Of a DNA stretch of 64,000 bases, positions 25,299 to 40,478 are shown piece by piece (within the stretch, counting starts at the first letter, position 1; each line of letters starts with the position of its first letter). Origin of the DNA: Micromonospora inositola (GTDB lineage: Bacteria > Actinomycetota > Actinomycetes > Mycobacteriales > Micromonosporaceae); contig NZ_LT607754.1 in the NCBI RefSeq assembly GCF_900090285.1, positions 5,420,001-5,484,000 on the forward strand, written 5' to 3'. The notes under the pieces are model-generated. The model was not told where the DNA came from and made no database searches. It saw only the letters and a program-made list of their open reading frames with translations. The translations under genes were made by a program, and so were the position numbers.

Positions 25299-25324
25299 GC
25301 GTTTCGTCCGCCTTTCCATTGACG

Positions 25325-25343
25325 TCAGTGCGACACGCACTGA
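25325..25343. promoter_or_regulatory. Perfect palindrome upstream of the Nif3-transporter operon
   Basis: TCAGTGCG-ACA-CGCACTGA: 8-bp perfect arms, 3-nt centre, 27 bases before the chosen Nif3 start. A likely operator. It has GTGC/GCAC cores but not the TGCACA form seen at other promoters in the island. Confidence 0.5.
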
Positions 25344-25611
25344 ACCTGGTGCGGCGGAAGCAAAAAGAGCTGCCACCGCTCGGACTCGGCGGCATGCGCG
25401 AACACGCGCAGACCGCCAACCGCCATCGGCGACAGCTGTCGGGCTCTTCGGGACGGAAGCTCCCTCGACCGTTCGTCGGCTCTGAATCACGACGTCCTCG
25501 TCGGCCCGTACCTGCAGGAACAGCGCCTCAGAGGTTTGTGATATATAACGGCGCTCGCCGGAGGGTGTCAAGGTCTCGACCGACCCGTCCGACCCTCATT
25601 ACAGTCGCGCC

Positions 25612-26085: not shown

Positions 26086-26541
26086 CTACCCGCTGAGCCC
26101 CAGTTCCGCGACGTGCTTCGCGAACGCTTCCAACGCCGCCGCGCCGACCGCCTTGTCCTGCTCGCCGTTGCCGCCGCTGACCCCGACGGCGCCGACGATC
26201 TGGCCCTCGTACTCGATGGGGAACCCGCCGACGAAGATGGCGAACTTCCCGGGGTACATGTGGCTGATCCCGAACGCCTCGTTGCCCGGCAGCGCGGGGC
26301 CGTTCGGCGGCTCGTTGAACTTGTGGGTCGCCCGCTCGTGCCCGGCCGCGGTGAACGCCTTCGCCATCGCGATCTCGACTCCGGTGAGGCGGGCACCGGG
26401 CAGCCGATGCAGCGCGAGCACATGGCCGCCGTCGTCGCAGACGCAGATCGTCTGCCGGACTCCGATCTCCTCCGCCTTCGCTCGCGCTGCGGCGAGCATG
26501 GGAAGCGCGTCGTCGAGCGTGATTCGGTAGATCCTGTGCAC
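26086..26541 (-). CDS. HbpS/GlcG family haem-binding-like protein
   Basis: 151 residues from GTG 26541 (AGGAGG just upstream). The family pattern is clear: LTLDDAL-type opening, VRQTICVCDDGGHVLALHRL, SHMYPGKFAIFVGGFPIEYEGQIVGAVGVSGG. Relatives form octamers; HbpS of Streptomyces binds and degrades haem, and GlcG-like proteins sit beside oxidative catabolic genes. It is divergent from the PucR gene, so it likely belongs to the same island. A TGCACA half-site overlaps its start codon (26536-26541 region). Confidence 0.82.
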   Translation of the reverse strand: MHRIYRITLDDALPMLAAARAKAEEIGVRQTICVCDDGGHVLALHRLPGARLTGVEIAMAKAFTAAGHERATHKFNEPPNGPALPGNEAFGISHMYPGKFAIFVGGFPIEYEGQIVGAVGVSGGNGEQDKAVGAAALEAFAKHVAELGLSG

Positions 26542-26668
26542 CTTGCCTCCTCTGCCCACTACCGGGCCGTCCGTGCGACCAGCCTGCCGGTACGCGGAGG
26601 GCGCGAACAATGGCTAGACTGCCGCGATGCGGCGGGGGAAGCTTGTGCAACCTGTCCAAGGAGTTGTC

Positions 26669-28426
26669 ATGACCGACCCATCGGCAGAGGCACTTCACGG
26701 CCCGCCTGGCGACGTGGACCCGCAGCACCTGACGGTGGGCCGGCTGCTGCAGGAACGGTTGCTCCGCCCGGCCCGTACGACGGCGTCCGCCCAGCTGCTC
26801 GACGCCGCCGTCACCTGGTGCCTGCCGTGGGACGAGGTCCAGACCAGCGTCGACCCCCTGCCCGGAGTTGTCGTCCATGCCCGGGCCGAGCAGGTCCGAC
26901 CGGCACTGCTTGCCGGTCTCGGCCGGCGCAGCGCCGCGGCGATCGTCGTCGCCGGCGGCGCCGGCGATCTTCCCGACCCGGCCTGCGGGCTGCCGGTGAT
27001 CCACGTCGGTGCGCACGTCGGGTTCCGTCAGCTCAGTCAGCTGGTGGCGGAACTCGTCCTGGCCCGGGACACCCACGTCCTCCGCTACGGCCTGAGGGTG
27101 CACCGCTCGCTGGTGGAGTTGCTGTACCGCGGGGCCGGGTTGGCCGCGCTCGGGCACCAGATGGCCCGGCTGTCCGGGTGCACGGCGGCCATCCTCGACC
27201 CGCAGTACCGCGTCCTGGCGTTCGAACCCAGCCGCGACCGCGTGTTCGAGGCGGCGGCGGTCGCGGACGCGCTGCGCGAGGACGCGTCCGGCGTGACGGC
27301 GGACAGCGCGTCACCGGGTCGTGACGCCGCGGCGGGACCAAGGCCGGCCGCTACCGAGCAGCCGCCCGCCGGGCCCCAGGTTCGGACGCTGCTGATCGAC
27401 GGGATCAGCGCGACGTGCGTGCTCAATCCGATCCTGCTCAGCGGTCGCCACGACGGCTGGGTGGTCATCGTGGAGTCGGCCGACCCGCCCAGCCCGCACG
27501 AGGTCGCGCAGCACCGCGTGGTCGTCGAGCAGGCCGCCACCATCGTAGGCACCGAGATGCTGCGCCTGCGCAGCGTGGAGCAGGCTGAGGAGCGGGCGCG
27601 GGGCGACTTCGTCCACGCGCTGCTGCACGGCCGTTTCTCGAACCAGCACGAGTTGGAAGCCCGGGCGGCACACTACGACTTCCCGGTCGGGGCGACCTAC
27701 GGCGTGGTCGTCGCGAACGGACTCGGCTCGGTCGGCAGCCCCGACTCCCCGACCGCCCTGTTCCAACTGGCCCGGCACGCGGCCCGCCTCGACGCCCGGC
27801 CGAACGGGCACACGCTGGCGACGGTCGTCGGCGACGTGCTCGCGGTGGTCCGGCAGGTCAACCCGACGGGCCGCCGGGACTCGCCGGACGCGCAGGACCG
27901 GGCGCTGGCGGACTTCGCCCGCACCCTGCAGGCGGAGTTGGAACGGAGAACCCAGCGCCCGGTGGCCGTGGCACACGGGCGCTGCGTCGGCGGCGCCGGC
28001 CGCATCTTCGACAGCTACCGGGAGGCGCGCATCGCGCTCGGGATCCGGAACCGTCTTGGCATGGACCAGGTCTGCGGCTTCCAGGACCTGAGGGTGTTCG
28101 CCGCCCTGGTGGAGCTCGCGGAGAGCCCGCAGGGGCGTGCCTTCGCCCGGGACATGCTGGCCCCGCTCCGCGACTCCCGCGCCGGCGGGAGCGGCTTGGA
28201 GCAGGCGGTCATCGCCTACGTCGCATCCGGCGGCAACCTCAACGCCGCCGCGCGGGAACTGCACATCCACCGCAACACGATGCTCTACAAGCTCGACCGC
28301 GCGTCACGGCTGCTGCAACTGGATCTGCGGGAGGCCGAGCACCAGTTCGCGGTGTGGCTGGCGCACAAGCTCAACCTGCTCGCCGAGACGGTGACGGCCG
28401 TCGACCGCGATCTCAGCCCGACGTAG
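26669..28426 (+). CDS. PucR family transcriptional regulator
   Basis: 585 residues from ATG 26669, chosen for AAGGAG six bases upstream. The N-terminal third is a purine-catabolism-regulator-like domain (LTVGRLLQERLL, QLVAELVLA), the centre a GAF/GGDEF-related CdaR region (about 300-500) and the C-terminus the PucR helix-turn-helix (AVIAYVASGGNLNAAARELH, IHRNTMLYKLDRA, about 525-570). PucR proteins usually activate nitrogen-compound catabolism in response to a substrate. It is central in the island, and TGCACA sites at its own promoter, the second transporter and the diiron-oxidase operon suggest it controls all three. Its 3' end overlaps the MFS gene tail-to-tail by 14 bases. Confidence 0.87.
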   Translation: MTDPSAEALHGPPGDVDPQHLTVGRLLQERLLRPARTTASAQLLDAAVTWCLPWDEVQTSVDPLPGVVVHARAEQVRPALLAGLGRRSAAAIVVAGGAGDLPDPACGLPVIHVGAHVGFRQLSQLVAELVLARDTHVLRYGLRVHRSLVELLYRGAGLAALGHQMARLSGCTAAILDPQYRVLAFEPSRDRVFEAAAVADALREDASGVTADSASPGRDAAAGPRPAATEQPPAGPQVRTLLIDGISATCVLNPILLSGRHDGWVVIVESADPPSPHEVAQHRVVVEQAATIVGTEMLRLRSVEQAEERARGDFVHALLHGRFSNQHELEARAAHYDFPVGATYGVVVANGLGSVGSPDSPTALFQLARHAARLDARPNGHTLATVVGDVLAVVRQVNPTGRRDSPDAQDRALADFARTLQAELERRTQRPVAVAHGRCVGGAGRIFDSYREARIALGIRNRLGMDQVCGFQDLRVFAALVELAESPQGRAFARDMLAPLRDSRAGGSGLEQAVIAYVASGGNLNAAARELHIHRNTMLYKLDRASRLLQLDLREAEHQFAVWLAHKLNLLAETVTAVDRDLSPT

Positions 28427-29852
28427 TGGCCGGCGACGTCCGGTCGGTGTCGAGCGGGGACGGGTCAGGGCCGGCGAAGCTGACCACCAGCCCGACGGCG
28501 GCGATCACCGTGCATCCGGCGAAGAGCAGCAGCAGATTGCCGTGCGGGTAGACGACCGCCACCCAGGCCGCGCCCAGCGCCGACCCGCCGAAGCGCATCA
28601 TGTTGAACAGTCCGAGGGCCGCGCCCGATCTGCCTGCGGGTGACCGGGTCGCCCCGGCGGCGGAGGGTGTCTGGACGAGGGCCACCCCCACACCCACCGC
28701 GAGAAGCAGCGCGACGAGCAGCGCGGTGCTCCGGCCGGCGTTGCCCGCGTACAGCCCCAGCAGCAGTTCCGCCGTGCCGAGCAGGACCAGACCGGTGCGC
28801 AGGATCCAGCGCGGCCGGCCGCGTTCGCTGAGCAGGCCGACGACGGGGGCCAACACGGCCATGGCGGCGGGCAGGGCGAGTACCAGCAGACCGGTGACGG
28901 CGGTGGCCCACCCGAGGGTCCCGGTGACATACAGCGGAACCGCGACGAGCGTGGCGGCGAGGCAGAACATCTGGGCGGCCGCGGCGACCGTGCTACGCAG
29001 GAATCGTGACTCGACGATGAGACGCGGCCGGATGATGGGCGCCGCCGCGTTGGCGGAGGAGATGACGAAGATCGCCAGCAGGCCGACGCCCGCCACCGCG
29101 AGCGTGACGGTGAGCCAGGTCGGCACCACGTGCTGCGGGACGGCGGTGGCGGCCGTCATCACCAACGCGGCACCGAGCGTCAACGACACCGCGCCGGGCC
29201 AGTGCAGCGCGGTGGCGTGCCCGCGGTCGTCCGGCACCACCAGGACGGTGGCGACGAGCAGGATCACCGCCACCGGCGCGAGGCACCAGAAGATCGCCCG
29301 CCAGCCGGCGAGGTCAGCCAGCAGACCGCCCAGCGGCGGGCCGATGGCCTGTCCGATCCCGTTGGCGGCCGCCCAGGCGCTCATCGTGCGGGTCCGCTGG
29401 CTCGGCCCGTAGATGCTGCCGAGCATGCCCATGACCGCCGGCGGGTAGGCCGCACATGCCATGCCCTGCAGGGCGCGCATCGCGACGAGGACAGGCAGCG
29501 ACGGGGCCAGCGCCGCCCCCACCATGGCGACCGCCATGAGGGCCAGGGACGCGATGACGGTACGGCGTCGTCCGAACCGGTCGCCCACCCAGCCGCTCAA
29601 CGCCATGCCCGTGGCGAGGACCAGGACGAAGCTGCTCACCACGAGCACGCCGGAGGACAGCGAGACGCCGAGATCGGCGGTGATGTCGCGCAACGGCACA
29701 TTCAGCACATTGTTGATGACGGTGCCGAGCAGCGTGGCACCGAGCAGGGTCAGCAGTACGGCGGGTCCCGCCCGCTTTCGCTGCGGCGGAGCCTCGAGGG
29801 CCGGCGTAGCCAACGACGGGGCGCCTCCAACCCGCAGCCGGGTGTCCCGCAC
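28413..29852 (-). CDS. MFS transporter (DHA2-like)
   Basis: 479 residues, about 14 hydrophobic segments. It has the conserved MFS motif A GWVGDRFGRRR, ALQGMACAAYPPAVMGML, and a motif C-like GIGQAIGPPLGGLL, typical of proton-driven exporters. The first helix has NNVLNVPLRDI in place of LD.T.VNVALP, so it is a divergent DHA2 member. It may export a catabolic intermediate or import the substrate. It converges on pucR and is divergent from the second paralogous transporter, whose upstream region holds several TGCACA sites that could serve both promoters. Confidence 0.87.
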   Translation of the reverse strand: MRDTRLRVGGAPSLATPALEAPPQRKRAGPAVLLTLLGATLLGTVINNVLNVPLRDITADLGVSLSSGVLVVSSFVLVLATGMALSGWVGDRFGRRRTVIASLALMAVAMVGAALAPSLPVLVAMRALQGMACAAYPPAVMGMLGSIYGPSQRTRTMSAWAAANGIGQAIGPPLGGLLADLAGWRAIFWCLAPVAVILLVATVLVVPDDRGHATALHWPGAVSLTLGAALVMTAATAVPQHVVPTWLTVTLAVAGVGLLAIFVISSANAAAPIIRPRLIVESRFLRSTVAAAAQMFCLAATLVAVPLYVTGTLGWATAVTGLLVLALPAAMAVLAPVVGLLSERGRPRWILRTGLVLLGTAELLLGLYAGNAGRSTALLVALLLAVGVGVALVQTPSAAGATRSPAGRSGAALGLFNMMRFGGSALGAAWVAVVYPHGNLLLLFAGCTVIAAVGLVVSFAGPDPSPLDTDRTSPATTSG

Positions 29853-29932
29853 GTCCCGTCCTTCCCGTCGTCTGCGCAGATCACATACCGTTCGAGACTG
29901 CGCCGTGACCGTCGGATGACGCTACGGCACCC

Positions 29933-29989
29933 TGCACAATCTTTGACCGCCGGCCTGTGCACATGGCTGATAGACGCTGACCTTGCACA
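29933..29989. promoter_or_regulatory. Cluster of TGCACA half-sites upstream of transporter copy 2
   Basis: TGCACA occurs at 29933-29938, 29958-29963 (within CTGTGCACATGG) and 29984-29989, spaced about 25 bases apart, i.e. roughly regular helical spacing. It lies between the divergent MFS gene and transporter copy 2. The form CTGTGCACA recurs at 38254-38262. Candidate PucR binding region. Confidence 0.5.
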
Positions 29990-30040
29990 CGCGGAGTCTG
30001 ACGTGCAATCAACTCCCTGCAAGAGGCAGTGAGGTAGCAG

Positions 30041-31636
30041 ATGCAGCTAACGGCGGCCCACTGGGTCTATCTAGCCGGCGTTGTCGTCATCATCGCGACG
30101 ATGATCGCCAGAAAGAACATCGTAGTCCCGGCCGTGGTCGCGACCCTCGCGACCGCGCTCGTCTTCTCGCACAGCGTCATCCGCGGGCTCTCCGCGGTGT
30201 TCAACGCCAGCCTCGTGGCGGCAACGAACCTGTTCAACATCTTCCTGATCATCGCGCTCGTGACCGCGATGCTGCACTCGTTGCAGGCGATCGGCGCCGA
30301 TCGGAAGATGGTCGTCCCGTTCCGAGGCGTGATGCGCAACGGCCACCTCGCCTTCTGGACGCTGGTGGTCGTCACGTACTTCATCTCGCTGTTCTTCTGG
30401 CCGACCCCGGCGGTGCCGCTGATCGGCGCGGTGCTCATCCCGGTGGCGATCCGCGCGGGTCTGCGGCCGATGGCCGTCGGCCTGGTCGTGGCGATCGCGG
30501 GCCAGGGCATGGCCCTCTCCTCCGACTACGTCATCCGGGTCGCCCCCGGGCTGTCGGCGAAGGCGGCGGGAGCGGACGCGAACGTGGTCGCCGACCGCGC
30601 CATGGTGCTGTCACTCGTCGTCGGTGGGGTCGCTCTCGCGGTCGCCTACCTGATGGAGTTCCGCACGATGCGCCAACCAGACCCGGCCCTGCTCGTCGAG
30701 TGGGAGTCGACGGCAGACGGCAGCGGTGAACGCGCGAGGGACCTGGCGGTCACCGAGCGGGAGCGCGAGCTGGTCGGCGCGGGCGAACGGCCGGCCGGTG
30801 GCGGGGACGTCCCGTCCCTGCGGGGCGGACCGCCGACGACCGGGCACGGCGTCGCGCTACGGGAGGAGTACGACGAGGAGCTGCGGGACGGCCCCGAAGA
30901 GTCAGCCGGCAGCTACCGCGGCAACCCCCTCGTACCGACCTTCTTCGCCATCTTCGTGCCGGTGGCCTACCTGGCGCTGATCGTGTACATGGTGGTCGCG
31001 AAGTTCTCCGACAGCGTGCCCGACCTGCGCGGCGGCGACGCCGCCGCCCTGGTCGGCGGCATCGCGGCCCTCATCGTCTTCCTGGCGGCGCTCGCCGGTG
31101 ACGGCAAGAGCTTCCTGGAGAGCTCCGCCGAGCACGTGGTCAACGGACTGGTGTTCGCGTTCAAGGCCATGGGGGTCGTCCTGCCGATCGCCGGCTTCTT
31201 CTTCATCGGCAACGGCGACTTCTCCGGCCAGATCCTCGGCACCGCCGATCCGGCGAAGGGGCCGGCGTTCCTGTACGACCTGGTCACGGCGGCGCAGAGC
31301 CACATCCCCCACAGCGGCTTCATCGCGGCCTTCGGCATCCTGCTAATCGGCATGATCGCGGGCCTGGAGGGGTCGGGCTTCTCCGGACTGCCGCTGACCG
31401 GGTCGCTGGCGGGCAGTCTCGGCCCGGCCGCCGGGATCAGCGCCGGGACGCTCGCCGCCGTCGGCCAGATGGGCAACATCTGGTCCGGCGGCGGCACCCT
31501 GGTCGCCTGGTCCTCACTCATCGCCGTCGCCGGTTTCGCCCGGGTGCCGGTGATCGCCCTGGCGCGCAGGTGTTTCATTCCGGTCGTCAGCGGGCTCGTC
31601 GTGGGGACCATCTTCGCGGTGGTCTTCTTCCCGTAG
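30041..31636 (+). CDS. Multi-pass membrane transporter, copy 2 of a paralogous pair
   Basis: 531 residues, same topology as the protein at 22626-24191: two hydrophobic halves with a charged central loop (about 205-290, rich in Glu/Arg). Shared motifs include HWVYLAG, ARKNIVVPA, LFNIFLIIALVTAML, FFWPTPAVPLIGA, GQGMALSSDYVI, LEGSGFSGLPLTGSLAG and SGGGTLVAWSSLIAVA. Likely an ion-coupled carrier for the island's substrate; the family name is unknown to me. ATG 30041 has GAGG six bases upstream. It converges on the diiron-oxidase operon, separated by a strong hairpin. Confidence 0.78.
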   Translation: MQLTAAHWVYLAGVVVIIATMIARKNIVVPAVVATLATALVFSHSVIRGLSAVFNASLVAATNLFNIFLIIALVTAMLHSLQAIGADRKMVVPFRGVMRNGHLAFWTLVVVTYFISLFFWPTPAVPLIGAVLIPVAIRAGLRPMAVGLVVAIAGQGMALSSDYVIRVAPGLSAKAAGADANVVADRAMVLSLVVGGVALAVAYLMEFRTMRQPDPALLVEWESTADGSGERARDLAVTERERELVGAGERPAGGGDVPSLRGGPPTTGHGVALREEYDEELRDGPEESAGSYRGNPLVPTFFAIFVPVAYLALIVYMVVAKFSDSVPDLRGGDAAALVGGIAALIVFLAALAGDGKSFLESSAEHVVNGLVFAFKAMGVVLPIAGFFFIGNGDFSGQILGTADPAKGPAFLYDLVTAAQSHIPHSGFIAAFGILLIGMIAGLEGSGFSGLPLTGSLAGSLGPAAGISAGTLAAVGQMGNIWSGGGTLVAWSSLIAVAGFARVPVIALARRCFIPVVSGLVVGTIFAVVFFP

Positions 31637-31653
31637 TGTCGGCAACACGAAGT

Positions 31654-31690
31654 GCGGAGGCGGCGGAGCAGCCATGCCCGCCGCCTCCGC
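31654..31690. terminator. Strong hairpin between transporter copy 2 and the RidA gene
   Basis: GCGGAGGCGGCGG and CCGCCGCCTCCGC form a perfect 13-bp stem with an 11-base loop, 17 bases after the transporter stop and between converging genes. Likely terminator for both sides. Confidence 0.75.
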
Positions 31691-31790
31691 CGTGCCGGCA
31701 CCGCACAACCGGGCTCTGAACCGGGGACTTCCCTCCAGCCGCTCGCCGTCCGCCGAGGGCGCAGCCGGACGGCGGAGATCCGCCCGGGGC

Positions 31791-32243
31791 TCAGTCGGCG
31801 GTCACGGCGGCGGTGAGCTCCACCTCGACCGGCGCGCCGGACGGCAGGCTCGCCACCCCGACGGCTGAACGCGCGACGGCACCGCGGTCGCCCAGCCAGT
31901 CCCGCAGCACCTCGGATGCGCCGTCGGCAACCAGAGAGTGCTGCGTGAAGTCGGGACGGCAGGCGACGTACACGGTCATCCGCAGGCATCGCCGCACCCG
32001 GTCCAGTCCCCCCACCGCCTGGGCCACCGCGGCGACGGCGTTGCTGGCCGCGATGCCGGCTGCGGCGCGCGCCTCGGCCACGGTCAGCTCCGCGCCCACC
32101 AGGCCGCGCACGGCGAGCCGGCCGTCCACCCGCGGGGTCATCCCCGCCGTGTACGCGACACCCTCGTGCACCACCACCGGCACGTAGTGGCCCTGCGGGG
32201 CCGGGGGCGCCGGCAGCCGTCCCCGGCCGGCCGGCTCAGCCAC
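31791..32243 (-). CDS. RidA family protein (enamine/imine deaminase)
   Basis: 150 residues from GTG 32243, which overlaps the end of the gamma-glutamyltransferase gene by eight bases. RidA/YjgF pattern: VVHEGVAYTAGMTPRVDG, a central helix SNAVAAVAQAVGGLDRV, and the tail ARSAVGVASLPSGAPVEVELTA with the conserved arginine that binds carboxylates. RidA proteins hydrolyse reactive enamines or imines to ketones plus ammonia. Last gene of the diiron-oxidase operon. An imine formed by the oxidase or released from its product would be its natural target. Confidence 0.85.
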   Translation of the reverse strand: MAEPAGRGRLPAPPAPQGHYVPVVVHEGVAYTAGMTPRVDGRLAVRGLVGAELTVAEARAAAGIAASNAVAAVAQAVGGLDRVRRCLRMTVYVACRPDFTQHSLVADGASEVLRDWLGDRGAVARSAVGVASLPSGAPVEVELTAAVTAD

Positions 32244-33843
32244 CGAGCACCACCCCGTCCTGCCGGGGGTCGGCGCCACCGGCGAGGCAGCCGAGCCGCT
32301 CGTCCACCGAGACCACCAGGGCACTCCCGCCCGCGTCCCACGGCCCCACCACCCGGACCGGGTGTCCGGCGGCGCGCAGCCCCGCGAGGGTCCGCTCGCC
32401 CAGCCGCGACTCGCAGATCAGCTCGTCGGGGGCCCCCACCACGTCCGAGTCGCTGCCCGGGAACACCGTGAACCGCGGCGCCGACACCGCCTCCTGCGGA
32501 TCCAGGCCGTGGTCGATCAGGTGCGACAGCACCTGCATGTTCCACTGCACCTGTCCGTCACCGCCGGGCGTGTTGCCGACGTGCCGCAGGGCTCCACCGG
32601 CGTCGGTCACCAACCACGCAAGGCAGGTGTGCAGCGGACGGCGCCGCGGTCGCACCTGGTTCGGGTGTCCCTCGACCAGGTACGCGCCGCGCCCCAGCCG
32701 ATTGTTGAGCATGATGCCGGTGCCCGGGATGGTGATCCGGGCGCCGAAGGTGAAGGCGAGCGAGTGGATGAAGCTGACCGCACGGCCGTCGCCGTCGACC
32801 GCGACTGTCGTCGTGGTGTCCCCGTCCGGCGTCAACCCGGCCGTCGCGAGTGGATGCCGTCCGGCGGCCAGCTTCGCCCGCACGTCCGCGACCGCCTCGG
32901 GCCGCAGCAGCGCCCGCCAGGCGTCCGTGTCGGCGCCGCACCGGTCCCAACGGTCCCGGAAGCCCTGGCGGGCGGCTCCGGCGAGCCAGCCGACCGCGTC
33001 GACGCTCAGCCACGGCAGGCCGGAGAGCATCCCGTCGCAGACGGCCGCCTGCTGCAGGACCATCCAGCCCGGTGTGGGCGGCGGTGACGTGTGCATGACC
33101 AGGTCGCCGTACCGGCCGGCGATCGCCTCGCCCTCGAGGGGGACGCCGGAGGCCGCCCACTCGTCGCCGTTGAACGGAGCGCCGGCCGCCGCCAGTGCGG
33201 CCACCGCGCGATCGGCCAGTTCGCCGGTGTAGAGGGCGCCGGGATCGGCCGCCAGCAGCCGCAGCGAGGCGGCGAGTTCCGGCTGTGGGAGCCGTTCGCC
33301 GACCTGCGGGGCCCGACCGTTGCGCAGGAACGTCCGTCGGGCCCCGTCGTCGGTGCGCAGCTGCGCCTCGTGTTCGACGATGTCCGCGCGGGTCTTCCGG
33401 GTGCAGGGCAGACCACGTTGGGCGGCGGCGATCGCCGGCGCCCACAACTCGGGGAGGCTGCGCGTCGCCCCGCGGGCGTGCAGCGCGGCGATCGCGGTCA
33501 CCGCACCCGGAGCCGCCACGGCCAGCGCCCCGGTGAGTGGAATCGCGGACAGGCCCCGCGCGCGGTAGAACTCCAGGTCGCCGCCGTCCGGCCCGTACCC
33601 GCTGCCGTTGATGGTCCACACCGACCCGTCCGGCTCCCGGACCACGGCGAAGGCGTCGCCGCCGACGCCGCACTGGCCCGGCAGCGCCAACCAGGACATC
33701 GCGGCCATCGCCACCGTCGCATCGATCGCGGTGCCGCCGTCGGCGAGCACGCGGTGGCCGACGGCGGTGACTCCCGGGTGGCTCGAGATCGCCATGTGCT
33801 CGCCGGCGAGAACCGGGTTACGGGTCGGTGCCGGCCAGTCCAC
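32236..33843 (-). CDS. Gamma-glutamyltransferase-like Ntn hydrolase
   Basis: 535 residues from GTG 33843 (GGGAG five bases upstream; GTGs at 33849 and 33858 are alternatives). The family opening is AISSHPGVTAVGHRVLADGG and TAIDATVAMA. The autoprocessing and catalytic threonine lies in GDTTTTVAVDGDGRAVS, where classical enzymes have TTHFSVVD; the His is a Thr here. HVGNTPGGDGQVQWNMQVL and the C-terminal domain are intact. No signal peptide, unlike periplasmic GGT, so it should act in the cytoplasm. It may hydrolyse a gamma-glutamyl or other amide in the pathway. Sixth gene of the operon. Confidence 0.85.
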   Translation of the reverse strand: MDWPAPTRNPVLAGEHMAISSHPGVTAVGHRVLADGGTAIDATVAMAAMSWLALPGQCGVGGDAFAVVREPDGSVWTINGSGYGPDGGDLEFYRARGLSAIPLTGALAVAAPGAVTAIAALHARGATRSLPELWAPAIAAAQRGLPCTRKTRADIVEHEAQLRTDDGARRTFLRNGRAPQVGERLPQPELAASLRLLAADPGALYTGELADRAVAALAAAGAPFNGDEWAASGVPLEGEAIAGRYGDLVMHTSPPPTPGWMVLQQAAVCDGMLSGLPWLSVDAVGWLAGAARQGFRDRWDRCGADTDAWRALLRPEAVADVRAKLAAGRHPLATAGLTPDGDTTTTVAVDGDGRAVSFIHSLAFTFGARITIPGTGIMLNNRLGRGAYLVEGHPNQVRPRRRPLHTCLAWLVTDAGGALRHVGNTPGGDGQVQWNMQVLSHLIDHGLDPQEAVSAPRFTVFPGSDSDVVGAPDELICESRLGERTLAGLRAAGHPVRVVGPWDAGGSALVVSVDERLGCLAGGADPRQDGVVLGG

Positions 33844-33854
33844 GCTCACTCCCG

Positions 33855-34265
33855 TCACCTCACCGGTTTGCGTCGGCGCGGGCCACCGGTCGCGATGTCC
33901 TCCGGCGTCACGCCCACGTAGATCTGCCCGTCCTCCTCCCGCACCGGGAACGTCTTGATCGGTTCGGTGGCGGGCGGGCAGACCGGCTCGCCCGTCTCGA
34001 GATCGAAGACGCTGCCGTGGCAGGAGCAGCCGATGCCGTCGTCGACGAGCTTGCCCGACGAGAGCAGGCAGTCCAGGTGCGTGCAGTAGTTCGACGTCGC
34101 GTACGCCTTGCCCTGGAAGCGGGCAACACACAGCTCCAGGCTGTCGGCGTAGAACCGGCGGACGTACCCGTCGGGCACCTGACCGGAGCGGGCGACGCAA
34201 ACGAATCTGGCGGCGCCCGGCTCCGCTCCCGCGTGCGGGGTGCCGGTGGCCTCGGGCGTGCTCAT
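33855..34265 (-). CDS. Rieske [2Fe-2S] protein, second of the operon
   Basis: 136 residues. The iron-sulphur ligands are C61-x-H63 (CTHLDCLL) and C80-S-C-H83 (CSCHGSVFD), in the usual Rieske frame; the domain covers about residues 20-122, and both tails are polar. No catalytic oxygenase domain is attached, so it is a soluble electron carrier. Its ATG overlaps the aldehyde dehydrogenase stop (ATGA). Having two Rieske carriers in one operon suggests two electron-requiring steps or a dedicated carrier for each partner. Confidence 0.87.
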   Translation of the reverse strand: MSTPEATGTPHAGAEPGAARFVCVARSGQVPDGYVRRFYADSLELCVARFQGKAYATSNYCTHLDCLLSSGKLVDDGIGCSCHGSVFDLETGEPVCPPATEPIKTFPVREEDGQIYVGVTPEDIATGGPRRRKPVR

Positions 34266-35698
34266 GAGCCCACGTACACGGTCTTGTCGACGGTGTAGAA
34301 GTGCATCATCGTCTCCCCTGCCTGTTCCTTGAACGTCTGGGTGCTGGAGTTCTTCAGCCCACCGAAGGGGGCGTTCATCGCCATGCCGGTGGTCGGCTGG
34401 TTGATCTTGACAAGGCCGCTGTCGACCCGCCGGGCGAAATCGAGCGCGCGGCCCAGGTCGCGGGTGACGATCCCGGCCGACAGACCGTACGCCGTGTCGT
34501 TGGCGACGCTGATCGCGTCGTCGAAGGATCCGACGCGCAGCACGCCCAGAACCGGTCCGAAGATCTCCTCCTGCGCCAGCGGCGACGACGGGTCGACGTC
34601 GGTGAAGACCGCCGGGCGGACGAAGTTGCCGTGTTCCAGGCCCGGACCGAGTGGCTCGTCACCGGCGCGGAGGCGGGCGTTGGCGGCCGCCGCGAGGTTG
34701 AGGTAGTGCCGGGTCTTGTCCAGTTGGGCGCGGGTCGCGAGGGGGCCCATCTGCACGCCGTCGGAGAGCCCGTCGCCCACCCGGCGAGCGCGGGCGAGTG
34801 CGACCACCCGCTCGACGAGCGCGTCGTGCACCGCGTCGTGGACGATCAGCCGGCTGGTGCCGGTGCACGCCTGGCCGCTGAGGCCGAACGCCCCGCGGAC
34901 CACGATGTCGGCCGCCCGGTCCAGGTCGGCGTCCTCCAGCACGATCACCGGGTTCTTGCCGCCCATCTCCAGTTGGCAGCGCTGGCTGGGTCCGACCGCG
35001 CGGTGGATGGCCGCCCCGACGTCAGAGGAGCCGGTGAAGGTCACCGCACCCACCCGCGGATCCGCGACCAGCGCCGCCCCGGCCTCCCCGCCACCCTGCA
35101 CGAGGGCGAGCGCACCGGCCGGGACGCCCGCGTCGAGCAGCGCCTCGACCAGCCGCTGCCCCATCAGCGGGGTCACCTCGCTCGGTTTGAACACCACCCC
35201 GTTGCCCGCCGCCAACGCCGGACCGAGCTTGCGCGACGGGATGTTCAGCGGGAAGTTCCACGGAGTGATGGCCACGACGACGCCGACCGGTTCCCGGGAG
35301 GTGTAGACGAGGCTGCCGTCTCCCGTGGCGTACGTGCTGCCGGCGACGCGCAGCGCCTCACCCGCGTAGAACCGGAGGTTCGACGGGGTCCGGCGGGTCT
35401 CGGTGAGCGCCTCGGCGAGCGTCTTGCCTTCCTCACGGACCAGGTCCCGGGCGAGGTGGTCGGCGCGGGCGGCGAGGATGTCCGCGGCGCGGTGCAGGAC
35501 CGCCGCCCGCGCCTCCGGACCGCGCTCCGCCCAGTCCCGGTAGCCGGCCGCGACCGCGGTCACCGCGTCGTGCGCGTCCTTCGCGTCCGAATCCGGGAAG
35601 ACCGCGACGACCTCGCGCTCGTCAGCGGGGTTCCGCCGCTCGCGGGTACGCCCGCTGGCCGAGCCCACCCACGCACCACCGATGAAGTTGCCCTTCAC
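34262..35698 (-). CDS. NAD(P)-dependent aldehyde dehydrogenase
   Basis: 478 residues from GTG 35698 (GGAGG seven bases upstream; overlap GTGA with the reductase stop). Family landmarks: ITPWNFPLNIPSRKLGPALA, FTGSSDVGAAI, catalytic Glu in LEMGGKNPVIVL and catalytic Cys in SGQACTGTSRLIV; EEIFGPVLGVLR and the C-terminal FGGLKNSS are present. The sequence leans toward the aldehyde dehydrogenases acting on 2,5-dioxovalerate and similar semialdehydes (impression only). In this operon it would oxidise the aldehyde left after oxidative cleavage. A longer upstream open frame is antisense noise. Confidence 0.9.
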   Translation of the reverse strand: MKGNFIGGAWVGSASGRTRERRNPADEREVVAVFPDSDAKDAHDAVTAVAAGYRDWAERGPEARAAVLHRAADILAARADHLARDLVREEGKTLAEALTETRRTPSNLRFYAGEALRVAGSTYATGDGSLVYTSREPVGVVVAITPWNFPLNIPSRKLGPALAAGNGVVFKPSEVTPLMGQRLVEALLDAGVPAGALALVQGGGEAGAALVADPRVGAVTFTGSSDVGAAIHRAVGPSQRCQLEMGGKNPVIVLEDADLDRAADIVVRGAFGLSGQACTGTSRLIVHDAVHDALVERVVALARARRVGDGLSDGVQMGPLATRAQLDKTRHYLNLAAAANARLRAGDEPLGPGLEHGNFVRPAVFTDVDPSSPLAQEEIFGPVLGVLRVGSFDDAISVANDTAYGLSAGIVTRDLGRALDFARRVDSGLVKINQPTTGMAMNAPFGGLKNSSTQTFKEQAGETMMHFYTVDKTVYVGS

Positions 35699-36915
35699 GG
35701 TTGCTCCTCCAACGCCGTCAGTTCGGTCAGGTCGACGTCCTCGTCGGCGAGGATCCGCGGATCGACGCTGACCTGTCCGGCGATCAGCTCCTTGGCGACG
35801 AGGACGTCCGCGCCGCGGTCGACGGCGAACGCCGCCCGGACCAGGCCGTCGCGCAGGTAGAACGCCGAGAAGTCGCACTCCTCGACCGAGCCGCGCACGA
35901 CCAGCTCGTCCCAGACCGGCGCGTGGCCGGTGTACTGCAGGTTGTGGTCGTACTGGTCCGACCAGAACCAGTGCGGTTCGGCGTACACGGTGGTCCGGCC
36001 GATCATGTTGTTGGCGGCGGCGGTGGCCTGCCGGCTCGCGTTGTCGAAATGCTCGACCCGGATCCGCTCCCCGAAGAGCGGATGCCAATGGTTGGCCACG
36101 TCGCCGGCGGCGTACACGTTCGGCACCCCGGTCTGGCAGTACTCGTCGACGAGGATGCCGTTGTCGACGGCGAGGCCGGACCGCTCGGCCACGCTGGTGT
36201 TCGGCGTGATGCCGATGCCCACCACCACCAGGTCGCCCTCGATGCGGCAGCCGCTGGTGGTGACGACGACGCCGGTCGGTGTCTCGACGACGGACTCGAC
36301 GGACTCGCCCAGCCGCAGCGTGACGCCCTGCCGGCGGTGGATCGCCGCGCAGGTGGCCCCGATCTCGCGGCCGAGTACGCGCTGCAGCGGCACGCCGAGC
36401 GCCTCCACCACCGTGACGTCGGCGCCCTTGCCGCGGCTGGTGGCGGCGACCTCGGCGCCGATGAAGCCGGCGCCGATGACGATCACCTGTACGCCCGGAC
36501 GCAGCTGGGCGCGGAGACGGTCGGCGTCCCGCCGGGTGCGGAGGTAGTGGATACGCTCGCCCGCGACGTTCGGCAGACGGCGGGGGCTCCCACCGGTGGC
36601 CAGCAGAACCGCGTCCGCGGCGACCTCCGTGCCGTCGGCCAACTCGACGAGCCCCCGCTCGGGCCGGATCCGGACGGCCGGCTGGCCGAGCCGCAGGCGC
36701 ACGTCGTTCGCCGCGCACCAGTGCTCCGACAGCAGGTGCAGGCCGCAGTCGTCGTCGCCGGCGAGGTACTCCTTCGACAGCGGCGGCCGCTGGTACGGTG
36801 CCTCCGGTTCGGCACCGAGCAGCTCGATCCGGCCGTCGAAACCGCGTCGGCGCAGCGCACGGGCGGCGACGGCGGCGGCCTGACCGGCGCCGACGGTGAC
36901 GATGGTCCTGGTCAT
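35695..36915 (-). CDS. FAD-dependent NAD(P)H:ferredoxin reductase (BphA4-like)
   Basis: 406 residues from ATG 36915. FAD site VTVGAGQAAAVAARAL (about 7-22), NAD site VIVIGAGFIGAEVAA (about 145-160), second FAD motif NVYAAGDVANHW. The substrate-end domain has HWFWSDQYDHNLQYTG, typical of reductases serving Rieske ferredoxins in oxygenase systems. It transfers electrons from NADH to the Rieske ferredoxin encoded seven bases upstream. Start supported by GGTGAG before ATG. It overlaps the aldehyde dehydrogenase start by four bases. Confidence 0.9.
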   Translation of the reverse strand: MTRTIVTVGAGQAAAVAARALRRRGFDGRIELLGAEPEAPYQRPPLSKEYLAGDDDCGLHLLSEHWCAANDVRLRLGQPAVRIRPERGLVELADGTEVAADAVLLATGGSPRRLPNVAGERIHYLRTRRDADRLRAQLRPGVQVIVIGAGFIGAEVAATSRGKGADVTVVEALGVPLQRVLGREIGATCAAIHRRQGVTLRLGESVESVVETPTGVVVTTSGCRIEGDLVVVGIGITPNTSVAERSGLAVDNGILVDEYCQTGVPNVYAAGDVANHWHPLFGERIRVEHFDNASRQATAAANNMIGRTTVYAEPHWFWSDQYDHNLQYTGHAPVWDELVVRGSVEECDFSAFYLRDGLVRAAFAVDRGADVLVAKELIAGQVSVDPRILADEDVDLTELTALEEQP

Positions 36916-36922
36916 CGGCAGC

Positions 36923-37300
36923 TCACCCCGCAGCCGCGGCCGGGTGTGCTGCGGCATCGCTCGCCGCGCGCCCGGTGCGCTGTCGCGGGTTGACGTAGAT
37001 CTTGCCGTTCGCCACCCGGACGTCGTACGTCGGCTGGCACTCGGCCTGGTCCGCCGCCTCGCCGGTGGCCGGGTCAAAGGACCACTGGTGACCGGGGCAG
37101 ATGATCCGCCCGTGCAGGATTGTCCCCTTGCTCAGGGAGCGCTGCTTGTGGACGCATACGTCGTGCAACGCGAAGACCTGGGCGTCGACGTAGAACAGCG
37201 CGATCGGCGTGCCGCCGACGACCACCTGCTTCCTCTTGCGGCGCGCGAGCTCGGACAGCTCGGCGACGGGCACCCACTCGACGGGGTTAGGCTCGCTCAC
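36923..37300 (-). CDS. Rieske-type ferredoxin
   Basis: 125 residues. Cluster ligands C49-x-H51 (CVHKQRSL) and C68-x-x-H71 (CPGHQWSFD), as in biphenyl or nitrite-reductase small-subunit type ferredoxins. The tail after 105 is Ala-rich. It lies between the diiron oxidase and the reductase genes and is the obvious carrier between them. The start ATG at 37300 follows a GGAGGGAGT-type SD. Confidence 0.9.
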   Translation of the reverse strand: MSEPNPVEWVPVAELSELARRKRKQVVVGGTPIALFYVDAQVFALHDVCVHKQRSLSKGTILHGRIICPGHQWSFDPATGEAADQAECQPTYDVRVANGKIYVNPRQRTGRAASDAAAHPAAAAG

Positions 37301-37397
37301 TCCCGACTCCCTCCGTATCTGAAGCGGTCGCGGAACTCCGGCCGCAGATGCCGGCAGGGTGGGTCAACCAGTGGACCCACCCGTCCGGCGGCTTCGG

Positions 37398-38111
37398 TCA
37401 GGCGCTGACCAGGTCCGTCGCCACGTAGGTGTCGTAGAGCGCCTTGGTGTAGGCGAAACGCATCTCCGCGCCCCAGCGGACGAACTGCAGCGATCGCTGC
37501 TGCAGTTCGGGCGTGTTGGCGTGGTCCAGGACGATCTGGTAGCCGCGCTCGCCGTGCACCTCGTCGGAGGTGATGTGCAGCTCGAAGAACTCGATCTCGT
37601 CCTCGGTGAAGCCGTACGCCTCGCGCAGCGGGACGATCTGCTTCTTGTAGATGCTCGGCACCTGGGACTCGAGGCCCACGACCAGTGCCGCGGTCGCCAC
37701 CGCGAAGTGCTCGCGCATGGCCGTGGCGTAGCACCACGCCTGAAGGCCGCGGGTCACCGCGTTCATGTTGTTCGGGTCCTCGATCCGCTCGCGCGTCGTC
37801 CCGCACGCCTCGGCGAAGCGGATCAGCAGGTCCGTGTGGCGGATGTCGGCCAGTTCCTCCTCGTACATGTTCTGCAGGAGGAAGTCCTTGGCGTCCGTGC
37901 AGGTGTCCGGGGTGTTGGCGTAGACGTAGCTCAGGTAGTCGGCGAACGGGCCCACGTAGTGGTAGTGGTTCTCCGCCCAGCGTGCGAAGTGGTGCCGCTG
38001 CAGCTTGCCGTCGGCCCATGCCTGGCTGAACGACGCGTTCTTGGCCTCCCTGCCCTTGATCGCGTCCTGGAGGGCAGTGCGGAAGTCGTCGCGGGAGAGC
38101 AGCTCGGTCAT
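37398..38111 (-). CDS. Haem-oxygenase-like diiron oxidase (HDO superfamily)
   Basis: 237 residues, all-helical, first gene of the operon. The six diiron ligands of the HDO superfamily are all present: E85-x6-H92 (EEELADIRH), E148 (GLESQVPSIY) and H179-x3-D183-x2-H186 (HITSDEVH). Spacings match those I recall for CADD (E81/H88/E142/H174/D178/H181). This separates it from cofactor-free PqqC and from thiaminase TenA, which share the fold. Known HDOs N-oxygenate amines or cleave C-C/C-N bonds (SznF, UndA, BesC). Electrons would come from the ferredoxin and reductase next door. Substrate unknown; the neighbours suggest a nitrogen-bearing carboxylate or amide. Confidence 0.85.
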   Translation of the reverse strand: MTELLSRDDFRTALQDAIKGREAKNASFSQAWADGKLQRHHFARWAENHYHYVGPFADYLSYVYANTPDTCTDAKDFLLQNMYEEELADIRHTDLLIRFAEACGTTRERIEDPNNMNAVTRGLQAWCYATAMREHFAVATAALVVGLESQVPSIYKKQIVPLREAYGFTEDEIEFFELHITSDEVHGERGYQIVLDHANTPELQQRSLQFVRWGAEMRFAYTKALYDTYVATDLVSA

Positions 38112-38230
38112 CTTGTCGCCTCTCTCTGTAGTGCGTCGGTGCGGTCCCGGCAGCTCGGCGTGGCGCCACGGGGAGTCTCTGGGGTGTCACCAACGCTAGG
38201 GAGCCGACGACCAGCGCCCCACGGTCAAGA

Positions 38231-38265
38231 TGCACATCCTTCGACGTCGTCTTCTGTGCACACAG
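38231..38265. promoter_or_regulatory. TGCACA sites in front of the diiron-oxidase operon
   Basis: TGCACA at 38231-38236 and the inverted repeat CTGTG-CA-CACAG at 38254-38265, within the divergent promoter of the diiron oxidase (minus) and DUF1275 gene (plus). CTGTGCACA is identical at nine bases to the site at 29955-29963 in front of transporter copy 2. Confidence 0.5.
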
Positions 38266-38305
38266 TCCACGGCGTTTCCGTCGGCCAATTTGCCATCGTG
38301 GGCCG

Positions 38306-39061
38306 ATGCCGACGATCAACAGCGCGTATCCGCGCCGATTCAGGTGGACGACGACAGGGCCGCCGCGCAGCAGCGACCGGCAGCGTCGGGGGCGGGAGTT
38401 GATGGCCGTCGTGCTGGCGGTGAACAGCGGCGCCACCGACGCGATCGGGTTCCTGGCGCTGGGCGGCGCCTTCACCAGCGTGATGACCGGGAACATGGTC
38501 CTGCTCGGGGTCGCCGTTGCTGGGGCCGACGGCGCGCTGGCCGTACACGCCGGGGCGGCGATCGCCTGCTTCATCCTTGGCTGCTCGCTCGGCACGCGCA
38601 TCGCCGGCACCCCCAGACCCGACGACCCGGTCTGGCCACCCGCGGTGACCAGGGCGCTGGCCGTCGAGGGCGTGGTGCTCACCGGCTACGCCGTGGGCTG
38701 GTGGTTGAGCGGCGGACACCCGTCGGGACAGCTGCAACTGTCGTTGCTGGTGCTCAACGCGCTCGCGCTCGGCATCCAGAGCAGCACGGTACAGCGGTTC
38801 GGCGTGGCGGGACTGTCGACCACCTACCTCACCGGGACGCTCACCACCGTGATCGCGCGACTCACCTCCGGGCACCGACTGCGCGACGTCACGCCGAGCG
38901 TCCGCACCCTGCTGGGGCTGATCGCGGGCGCGGCGCTCGGCGGTTTGCTCGCGGTACGCGCGCCGGTGTGGGCGCCTCTGGTGCAGCTGGGGAGCCTCGG
39001 CACCGTCCTGGCCGCTGCCGTCGCGGCGATCCAGCCGGCGCCCGACCGCGATCGGCCATAG
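38306..39061 (+). CDS. DUF1275 (YoaK-like) membrane protein
   Basis: 251 residues with six hydrophobic segments. The family opening NSGATDAIGFLALGGAFTS, then VMTGNMVLLGVA, and the repeat LSTTYLTGTLTTVIARL mark DUF1275. The two TGNxx/TGTL elements suggest an internal repeat, as in small transporters. Function not established. The start is uncertain: ATG 38306 gives a 30-residue basic leader common in the family, and ATG 38402 with GGAG close by is possible. It is divergent from the diiron-oxidase operon. Confidence 0.82.
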   Translation: MPTINSAYPRRFRWTTTGPPRSSDRQRRGRELMAVVLAVNSGATDAIGFLALGGAFTSVMTGNMVLLGVAVAGADGALAVHAGAAIACFILGCSLGTRIAGTPRPDDPVWPPAVTRALAVEGVVLTGYAVGWWLSGGHPSGQLQLSLLVLNALALGIQSSTVQRFGVAGLSTTYLTGTLTTVIARLTSGHRLRDVTPSVRTLLGLIAGAALGGLLAVRAPVWAPLVQLGSLGTVLAAAVAAIQPAPDRDRP

Positions 39062-39111
39062 GCGTCGTGATCGCCGGATCCCGGAGGAACCGGCGATCAC
39101 CGCTGGTCCAG

Positions 39112-39240
39112 TTACGCGATGCGGCGGATCCTACGAATGGCGAGATAGAGCAGGAGCAGGACGAGGACGACGAAGATGCCGGTCTCGATGCCCTGGAAGA
39201 GCCAGAACCGGAGGCGTTGTCGGAATGCAGTCGGAGCAGG
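39112..39240 (-). pseudogene. C-terminal fragment of a membrane protein
   Basis: About 40 residues ending FRQRLRFWLFQGIETGIF, then a hydrophobic run and YLAIRRIRRIA before a stop. It is a credible last transmembrane helix with a basic tail, but no upstream domain exists in this frame: the DNA upstream belongs to the LysR remnant in another frame. It looks like the end of a lost gene joined to the truncated LysR gene. Confidence 0.4.
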
Positions 39241-40020
39241 GCGAGGTCGGGCGGGATGGCCCGGACGGCCAGGGCGGGCACCAGTGCGACGCCCAGCCCG
39301 GCCGCGACACAGCCCAGCTTGCCGGTCCACTCCGCGGCCACGATGTCCGTCCGAGGTCGGAAGCCGGCCGGCAGGGTGGCCCGCAGCAGGGTCTCCTCGA
39401 CGGTGGCCGAGCCCGCGATGAAGGCATCATCGGCCAGTTCGCGCAGCCGGACCGTCCGCCGGTGGGCCAGCCGGTGCGTCCTGGGCGCCGCCACCAGCAG
39501 CACCTCGTCCAGGAGGTGGTGCAGGTCGAGGCGGTGGCCGTCGAGCGGCTGGTCGGGTGCGGCGCTCACCACGGCGACGTCGGCGTCGCCGTCGAGGAGG
39601 CGTTCCAGCAGCCCGGGCGTCAGCCCCTCGACCAGGGAGAGCGCCACCTCGGGGATGGGCGGACCGGAACGTGGCCAGGGCGCGCGGGACGAGCGCGGCG
39701 ACCGCCGTCGGGAAGGCGCCGACCCGCAGACGGCCGGCGGTGAGGTCGCGGAGCGCGGCCAGGTCCCGGCGGGCGGCGTCGAGGCGGTCGAGCACCGCCA
39801 CGGCATGGTCGAGCAGGCAGCGACCCTGTTCGGTCAGGGCTACGCCGCGCGGCAGCCGGTCGAACAGGGGGATCCGGTCTCGGCCTCCAGCGCGGCGATC
39901 TGCCGGGACACCGCGGACTGGGTGTAACGCAGGGTCCGGGCGGCAGCCGTGATGGAGCCGTGCTCGGCGACCGCGCGGAAGACCTGAACGTCGGAGGCGA
40001 GCAGTGACCGCCGGCCGAGA
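39225..40020 (-). pseudogene. LysR family regulator, frameshifted and truncated
   Basis: Three frames are needed to read one LysR protein. The HTH (SDVQVFRAVAEHGSITAAAR, TLRYTQSAVSRQIAALEAE) is in one frame. After about 39876 it moves to a second (IPLFDRLPRGVALTEQG to ATFRSAHP), consistent with loss of one base. After about 39651 it moves to a third (PEVALSLVEGLTPG to ALVPALAVRAI), consistent with an extra C in a CCCC run. The last 50 or so residues of the effector domain are missing and no convincing start codon precedes the HTH. A sequencing error could explain one shift but not the truncation. Confidence 0.75.
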
Positions 40021-40061: not shown

Positions 40062-40478
40062 TCAGGCGCGGATGTCCTGCCTCGCGGAAGCCTGCCAACG
40101 CAGTTCGTGGCGCGCCAGGGCGTTCTTGTGCACCTCTTCGGGCCCATCGGCGAAGCGCACGGTGCGGAGGCGGGCGTAGGCGCCCGCCAGTGAGAAGTCC
40201 TCGGAGAGGCCGGCGGCGCCGTGCAGCCGCCGCGCCACCGGCTGCGCCTCGGCCATGGTGGCCTCCAGGCGCTCGCGCTGCGTGCGCAGCAGTCGCTCGT
40301 AGATCTCCTGGAGGAGGTCGTCCTTGCCCGCGAAGTAGTGGTACATCGCGCCCTTGGTGACCCCGGCCGCCTCGACGATCTCCTGGACCGAGGTCTTCTC
40401 GAAGCCCTTCTCCGCGAACAGCCTGGTGGCGACCGCCAGCAGCCGCTGCGGCAGCGCCTCGTCGCCCGTTCGACCCAC
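40062..40478 (-). pseudogene. TetR N-terminus fused in frame to an acyl-CoA dehydrogenase C-terminus
   Basis: 138 residues. Residues 1-82 are a TetR DNA-binding domain ([39 protein letters not shown]) and the first ligand-domain helix. From about residue 86 the sequence becomes the end of an acyl-CoA dehydrogenase: [19 protein letters not shown], then [22 protein letters not shown]. The rest of both genes is gone, with the reading frame kept. A deletion joining two neighbouring genes is the simplest explanation, perhaps at the similar (L/V)HGAAG stretch. DNA binding might survive but the sensor domain is lost. Confidence 0.72.

Follow-up and report, generated by a model that had tools for sequence, protein, structure and literature searches.

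A recurrent gene set around a CADD-like dimetal oxidase in Micromonospora inositola and its possible role in catabolism

A 64,000-nucleotide stretch of Micromonospora inositola contig NZ_LT607754.1 (the window) carries a set of twelve genes, from 26086 to 39061, that centres on a haem-oxygenase-like dimetal oxidase (HDO). Seven of these genes were covered by an earlier note made from the letters alone (the original prediction). The seven-gene set is no chance neighbourhood, because it recurs in dozens of loci. The oxidase is very probably electron-driven and the set as a whole probably serves catabolism; chances are about even that, stated in full, it is a regulon by which a small, nitrogen-containing and probably anionic compound is oxidatively catabolised.

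Composition and conservation of the gene set

Gene families were assigned with Pfam and NCBIfam models, and the GTG starts of the aldehyde dehydrogenase (ALDH), GGT-like and RidA-like genes are our own choice. The original prediction had described seven same-strand genes at 31791-38111, and all seven are borne out, each family being backed by Pfam:

37398..38111, minus strand: HDO, CADD-like haem-oxygenase-like dimetal oxidase, 237 amino acids, presumed terminal oxidase or oxygenase (PF14518, 122 bits)
36923..37300, minus strand: Rieske A, dioxygenase-type ferredoxin (PF00355, 66.5 bits; C49-x-H51 ... C68-x2-H71)
35695..36915, minus strand: FAD/NADH ferredoxin reductase, HcaD/AndAa-like (PF07992 and PF14759)
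34262..35698, minus strand: ALDH (PF00171, 505 bits)
33855..34265, minus strand: Rieske B, second Rieske protein with an extra cysteine pair (C61-T-H63..C66, C80-S-C82-H83)
32236..33849, minus strand: GGT-like Ntn hydrolase (PF01019, 301 bits)
31791..32243, minus strand: RidA-like imine/enamine deaminase (closest PDB sequence, the Rid1 protein PA0814)

The intervals between these genes are 97, 7, -4, -4, 5 and -8 bases (negative values being overlaps), and only the 5-base gap lies outside the predicted gap range of 7-97 bases. The gene order recurs in other genomes, as the original prediction required, and the statement that no named pathway has this gene set stands, with no matching pathway in the open-access literature searched.

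Beyond the seven, the set takes in an HbpS-like protein, a PucR-type regulator, an MFS protein, an anion-carrier-like membrane protein (Tpt) and, in some loci, a DUF1275 protein:

26086..26541, minus strand: HbpS/GlcG-like small protein (PF03928, 123 bits); GTG start set by comparison with relatives, open frame extending to 26610
26627..28426, plus strand: PucR/CdaR-type regulator, presumed regulator of the set (PF13556 and PF17853)
28413..29852, minus strand: MFS transporter (PF07690)
30041..31636, plus strand: Tpt, membrane protein without a Pfam family, whose model resembles organic-anion carriers
38306..39061, plus strand: DUF1275 membrane protein, divergent from HDO, optional member (PF06912)

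A scan of contigs returned at least 529 HDO relatives in at least 598 matching stretches, from which the best 80 by HDO similarity were kept; 58 of these have at least 9 kb on both sides (full-flank loci) and 72 have 3.5 kb downstream. Companion genes were found by tblastn, with identity limits per gene and at least a quarter of the query covered. Among the 58 full-flank loci, Rieske A was found in 58, Rieske B, the reductase and ALDH in 57 each, RidA and PucR in 56 each, the HbpS-like protein in 55, GGT and MFS in 53 each, Tpt in 47 and DUF1275 in 20. DUF1275 aside, all ten companions are present in 39/58 loci and at least nine in 54/58, the remainder being L032, L037, L061 and L080. The genes after HDO follow two layouts, reductase-ALDH-Rieske B (48 loci) and reductase-Rieske B (22 loci); HDO, both Rieske proteins and the reductase can therefore form a block without ALDH. 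Median identities of accepted matches to the window are 85% for HDO, 79% for HbpS, 71% for Rieske B, 63% for ALDH, 62% for GGT, 61% for Tpt, 58% for RidA, 55% for Rieske A, 54% for the reductase, 47% for MFS and 41% for PucR.

The HDO set is patchy yet widespread. In a sample of 150 genomes of the same family only two match HDO, the source genome included. In a phylum-wide sample, 7/396 genomes match at an E-value of 1e-20; only the source genome and G180 (78% identical) are close, and the other five matches are 30-34% identical. Six plasmid records match HDO at about 70%, and a seventh match (Azospirillum) is a PqqC at 26%.

Such a distribution, with one other of 149 sampled family genomes matching, would also suit a set that makes or detoxifies a natural product instead of feeding the cell. 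The best models for the MFS protein are effluxers, and the HDOs covered by a 2026 review are described, in its available text, as natural-product enzymes (PMC13108848). We nevertheless find this role improbable, as the families common to at least six loci include, mostly by eye, no ligase, polyketide synthase/non-ribosomal peptide synthetase or transferase, and ALDH, HbpS and Tpt accompany HDO in both actinobacteria and beta-proteobacteria.

The oxidase and its electron supply

Judged by its residues and its modelled fold, the oxidase is an HDO, and neither a p-aminobenzoate (pABA) synthase nor PqqC. The complete ligand set named in the original prediction (E85, H92, E148, H179, D183 and H186) is present and invariant in 43/43 aligned HDO sequences, six of which are only 29-33% identical. 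These three histidines and three carboxylates, the ligand residues of an HDO, align with positions that we take to be the metal ligands of CADD. An AlphaFold2 model (mean predicted local distance difference test score, pLDDT, of 95.3) has the haem-oxygenase-like helical fold, with CtCADD (8va9) as its best match (TM-score 0.92 on the target) and PqqC, UndA, HrmI, FlcD and BesC as further matches. By sequence the best solved relatives are 4-aminobenzoate synthases and CT610 (CADD), then PqqC. The assignment away from pABA synthase and PqqC follows from the replacement of the CADD tyrosine and lysine and from NCBIfam scores far below cut-off: in the sequence alignment Ser29 stands at CADD Tyr27 and Gln158 at CADD Lys152 (presumably the sacrificial tyrosine and an active-site lysine), and HDO scores 100 bits against TIGR04305 (CADD; cut-off 200) and 46 bits against TIGR02111 (PqqC; cut-off 240). 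Synthesis of pABA by HDO was ruled out on these two replacements. As the original prediction likewise required, the protein is not of the TenA/PqqC type, its model being CADD-like and its ligand residues kept. It is the single PF14518 match in the source genome and is 97% identical to the HDO of Micromonospora yasonensis.

The fold match to the N-oxygenase HrmI raises the question of whether HDO hydroxylates an amine nitrogen, with the later enzymes processing an oxime or nitroso product. Further HDO N-oxygenases exist besides the azomycin enzyme. The azomycin enzyme itself is a known example, as given in the excerpted text of PMC10724926. This chemistry seems unlikely here, since HDO is closer to CADD than to HrmI in both sequence and fold and no nitronate, oxime or nitrite enzyme was recognised in the set.

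HDO is very probably electron-driven, the strongest sign being that unrelated carriers adjoin members of the same HDO clade in other lineages. Of the 72 loci with downstream sequence, 70 have HDO, Rieske A and the reductase as contiguous first, second and third genes, the exceptions being L080 and L045, the latter with no Rieske A found. In five loci from Cupriavidus and Caballeronia (L003-L007, five of the six plasmid records), HDO instead neighbours two plant-type ferredoxins and an FNR-type [2Fe-2S] reductase, along with ALDH, an HbpS-like protein, a protein of the ornithine-cyclodeaminase (OCD) family and Tpt. A plant-type ferredoxin and then a Rieske protein follow HDO in a Pirellula bin (L067), Desertimonas (L080) and G180 (L097), and a rubredoxin-like protein comes after an HDO that is 50% identical in G002 (L008). 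On an HDO tree of 94 rows, three changes suffice for the four carrier labels, which is the minimum, with the Rieske-reductase label given to 79 rows as a group (the reductase was found in 77/80 loci). The eight rows with other carriers sit on one shared branch (97/95), on a tree whose bootstrap is not settled and where the branch of L008 is long. Each of the five beta-proteobacterial loci also has a small protein that separates its two plant-type ferredoxins (L003, 8403-8741, minus strand; L004, 11078-11428, minus strand), and the L004 copy matched no Pfam family.

The two Rieske proteins are both well kept. At least 97% of 42 rows, two of them the window's own sequence, retain the ligands of Rieske A, and at least 97% of 55 rows the Cys/His residues of Rieske B; in median identity Rieske B is the better conserved of the two. 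Weak model matches of Rieske B include sulredoxin and bc1 Rieske proteins, and we take its extra cysteine pair to be like theirs; such a pair goes with a higher potential. By eye, Rieske B has no obvious membrane anchor.

Were the oxidase a metal-free enzyme of the PqqC/TenA type, the Rieske protein and reductase would serve another oxygenase. HDO does give weak matches to the PqqC and TENA_THI-4 models, and ring-hydroxylating oxygenases occur in 12/13 relative genomes searched for their alpha subunits (L018 was left out, and genome completeness is not stated). The window's own genome has two such alpha-subunit matches, both more than 1.1 Mb away. We hold this alternative to be very improbable indeed, given the invariance of all six ligand residues, a PqqC score of less than a fifth of that needed, the contiguity of the partners and a carrier type that changes while HDO stays. 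In addition, the genome of M. fulviviridis (L010/G544) has HDO, Rieske protein and reductase with no match to a ring-hydroxylating oxygenase alpha subunit.

Downstream enzymes, transport and regulation

The nearest NCBIfam models of ALDH are 2,5-dioxovalerate and alpha-ketoglutaric semialdehyde dehydrogenases, below cut-off (NF052305, 513 bits against 750), and where the second layout occurs in Pseudonocardia- and Streptomyces-like loci, ALDH identity is only 40-45%.

In the GGT-like protein the nucleophile threonine region is preserved, its G343-D344-T345-T346 being retained in at least 97% of 63 rows and aligning with the Thr391 region of E. coli GGT. The E. coli residues that we take to bind the gamma-glutamyl group are replaced (R114 by S, D433 by H, S462-S463 by H-T), which rules out the gamma-glutamyl amide put forward as a possible substrate in the original prediction; what is upheld of that reading is an HDO whose ligand residues are intact, next to redox partners, and a conserved set, regulator and transporters included, that matches no pathway in the open-access literature searched. 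The protein scores 215 bits against TIGR00066 (cut-off 358) and is presumed to be a hydrolase of another amide or lactam. The Ntn hydrolases 5hft (presumably the oxamate amidohydrolase HpxW; only its small chain was aligned), 2i3o and 2nlz all share with it the H-T that replaces the Ser-Ser of GGT, and a GGDxQ stretch is common to the window protein, 5hft and 2i3o.

With PA0814 as its best PDB match and a deaminase arginine (R125) that at least 97% of 66 rows retain, the RidA-like protein appears to be a Rid1 member. PA0814 is a Rid1 protein that in vitro deaminates imines of several amino acids, not iminoarginine, according to the portion available of PMC5619798. RidA was found in 66/80 loci, and an OCD-family protein (loci searched at an E-value of 1e-5) in L003-L007, L080 and L097 only; RidA was not found in any of those seven. 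The nearest models of the OCD-family protein, all below cut-off, include pyrroline/piperideine-carboxylate and iminosuccinate reductases, cyclodeaminase and alanine dehydrogenase. Imino acids are substrates of Rid and of many OCD proteins, so the mutual exclusion of the two hints at an imino-acid intermediate in the pathway.

Tpt matched no Pfam family. Its model (mean pLDDT 73) resembles the MleN, TRAP, ArsB and INDY carriers (TM-scores about 0.4-0.55, root-mean-square deviations 8-13 A), which suggests an organic anion as its substrate. A second Tpt paralogue, 54% identical, lies in the window at 22626-24191 (minus strand), adjoining a 456-residue protein at 24201-25571; a second Tpt also stands right after RidA in four mycobacterial loci (L079, L081, L082, L083) and in one Rhodococcus locus (L054). 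The six plasmid records with HDO all carry Tpt too, and so does one further record, plasmid p1 of Arthrobacter sulfonylureivorans (L096), in which Tpt adjoins an LLM flavin oxygenase, a flavin reductase, an amidase and an ALDH. Further neighbours in this catabolic-looking plasmid set are a CoA ligase, an enoyl-CoA hydratase and a 337-residue frame with a TetR-type and a Rid domain.

The Arthrobacter neighbours represent the same kinds of step with another oxygenase, and they fit a variant in which HDO stands in for a flavin oxygenase of the RutA type and ring-opens an N-heterocyclic carboxylate, leaving the amide hydrolase, ALDH and Rid to finish, in keeping with the logic of the Rut pathway. 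The resemblance of Tpt to anion carriers fits as well. Against it, the parallel is a single plasmid whose CoA ligase and enoyl-CoA hydratase are not in the HDO set, and the open-access literature searched contains no report of catabolic ring opening by an HDO. We consider this variant possible, at somewhat long odds.

The HbpS-like protein lacks the known iron site E78XXE81, reading E79xxM82 if its conserved Lys83 is equated with K84 (by eye). That it might supply the iron of HDO is attractive, though the tight iron motif is not kept.

The motif TGTGCAC forms part of two candidate operators:

38255..38262, no strand: palindrome TGTGCACA upstream of HDO, operator candidate
29956..29963, no strand: palindrome TGTGCACA between the divergent MFS and Tpt genes, operator candidate

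We counted TGTGCAC within 250 bases before each gene, with random pieces of the same loci as a control; the rows are kin to one another, and a divergent pair of genes has its intergenic DNA in common. It precedes HDO in 44/80 loci, Tpt in 55/64, MFS in 32/59, HbpS in 29/66, PucR in 15/60 and also GGT in 16/65, against 94/1600 random pieces. The counts before ALDH (0/66), Rieske A (0/79), Rieske B (1/70) and RidA (3/65) are low. This enrichment before unit-leading genes supports a single regulon without proving it. Within the window as a whole the motif is neither rare nor enriched (12 found, 9.5 expected), and TTGCAC is rarer than expected (6 against 17.8). One copy, at 26535-26541, shares bases with the HbpS start codon, and we do not propose it as an operator. 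Pairwise comparison of the window's own intergenic regions gave no shared operator above shuffles, and a promoter and terminator scan of the window gave nothing above chance.

Next to the set, the window has a LysR-type protein at 38889-39806 (minus strand; PF03466) and, by eye, a TetR-like frame at 40062-40478 and a molybdopterin-oxidoreductase-like frame at 40544-42763 (both minus strand).

The proposed pathway and its relation to known systems

In the catabolic pathway that we propose, Tpt, the MFS protein or both would move the substrate, for example an amino acid or an N-heterocyclic carboxylate. NADH would supply electrons, which the FAD reductase and one or both Rieske ferredoxins would relay to diferrous HDO; HDO would activate O2 and oxidise the substrate at or beside a C-N bond. 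ALDH would oxidise the product aldehyde, RidA would hydrolyse an imine next to a carboxylate (to be handled in some relatives by the OCD-family protein), and the GGT-like Ntn hydrolase would open an amide or lactam other than a gamma-glutamyl one. PucR may respond to the substrate or an intermediate, probably at the TGTGCAC sites. HbpS and Rieske B fall outside the proposed steps. The analysis shows the gene set and its conservation, the ligand residues, the swapping of carriers and the enrichment of the motif, and from these the flow of electrons, the individual reactions, the class of substrate and the catabolic purpose are inferred.

Several points weigh against this proposal. The 80 loci were picked by HDO similarity, so that the high identity of HDO is partly selection (the HbpS figure is unaffected), and many loci are close kin, several from one genus, so that the counts are not independent. 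A carrier that neighbours HDO need not feed it: of the two Rieske proteins, which are of different types, perhaps just one serves HDO, and the ring-hydroxylating oxygenases of the 12 relative genomes could use the carriers. The beta-proteobacterial loci gave no GGT match, RidA and the OCD-family protein are both missing from L008, and the exclusion between these two partly follows phylogeny. The fold match of Tpt is weak. The TGTGCAC motif was spotted after the fact, the random pieces it is compared with are largely coding DNA, and its count is raised before an operon-internal gene as well, the reductase (15/76).

We are evenly divided on the broadest claim, that this is a widespread new catabolic pathway started by a multi-turnover, three-component HDO fed by a Rieske ferredoxin, with carriers swapped in other lineages. 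If it is true, HDOs would be modular catabolic oxygenases driven by ferredoxin, in the company of P450s, Rieske oxygenases and diiron monooxygenases, and Rieske B and HbpS would be new accessory parts. HDOs have so far been studied mainly in natural-product pathways; a regulon conserved in actinobacteria and beta-proteobacteria, with exchangeable carriers, would show them as ordinary multicomponent catabolic oxygenases, would give multi-turnover HDO systems for study and would point to a nutrient consumed through a so far undescribed route. The exchange of carriers and of RidA for the OCD-family protein leads to specific, testable predictions.

Four known systems bear comparison with the set. 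The Rut pathway for uracil unites an oxygenase (RutA), an amide hydrolase, a Rid-family step and a transporter in one set; these are the same kinds of parts as in the window, a working likeness with no claim of orthology, and the difference is that RutA is a flavin oxygenase in place of an HDO. CADD, the self-sacrificing pABA synthase, shares its fold and all six ligand positions with HDO, whereas the window protein has Ser29 and Gln158, falls below the TIGR04305 cut-off and has other gene neighbours. The cleaved tyrosine of CADD is described in the accessible part of PMC11965152.

A third is the mangotoxin acetylenase MboA, an HDO whose site has three histidines and three carboxylates and which has an NADH-linked redox partner of its own; it needs this reductase, MboB, for the second, full oxidation. 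In the available sections of the 2026 paper, MboAB is described as perhaps the first HDO with a dedicated redox partner (PMC13185094), and by term search the word "ferredoxin" is absent from the main text of the 2026 HDO review, as available (PMC13108848). MboB is, by the same MboAB excerpts, a single flavin/[2Fe-2S] reductase in a peptide biosynthetic cluster (PMC13185094), whereas the window has a Rieske ferredoxin and a separate FAD reductase in a catabolic-looking set; what stands here for a dedicated pair of the MboAB type is gene contiguity in 70/72 loci. Finally, AibH1H2GF, the Aib monooxygenase of Rhodococcus wratislaviensis, is a dimetal oxygenase to which NADH, a reductase and a Rieske ferredoxin pass electrons, with an ALDH and a transporter in the same catabolic cluster. 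In the text available for it, AibG and AibF feed a different dimetal oxygenase from HDO, the terminal enzyme having an amidohydrolase fold and AibF being a [2Fe-2S] reductase with FMN (PMC7782822).

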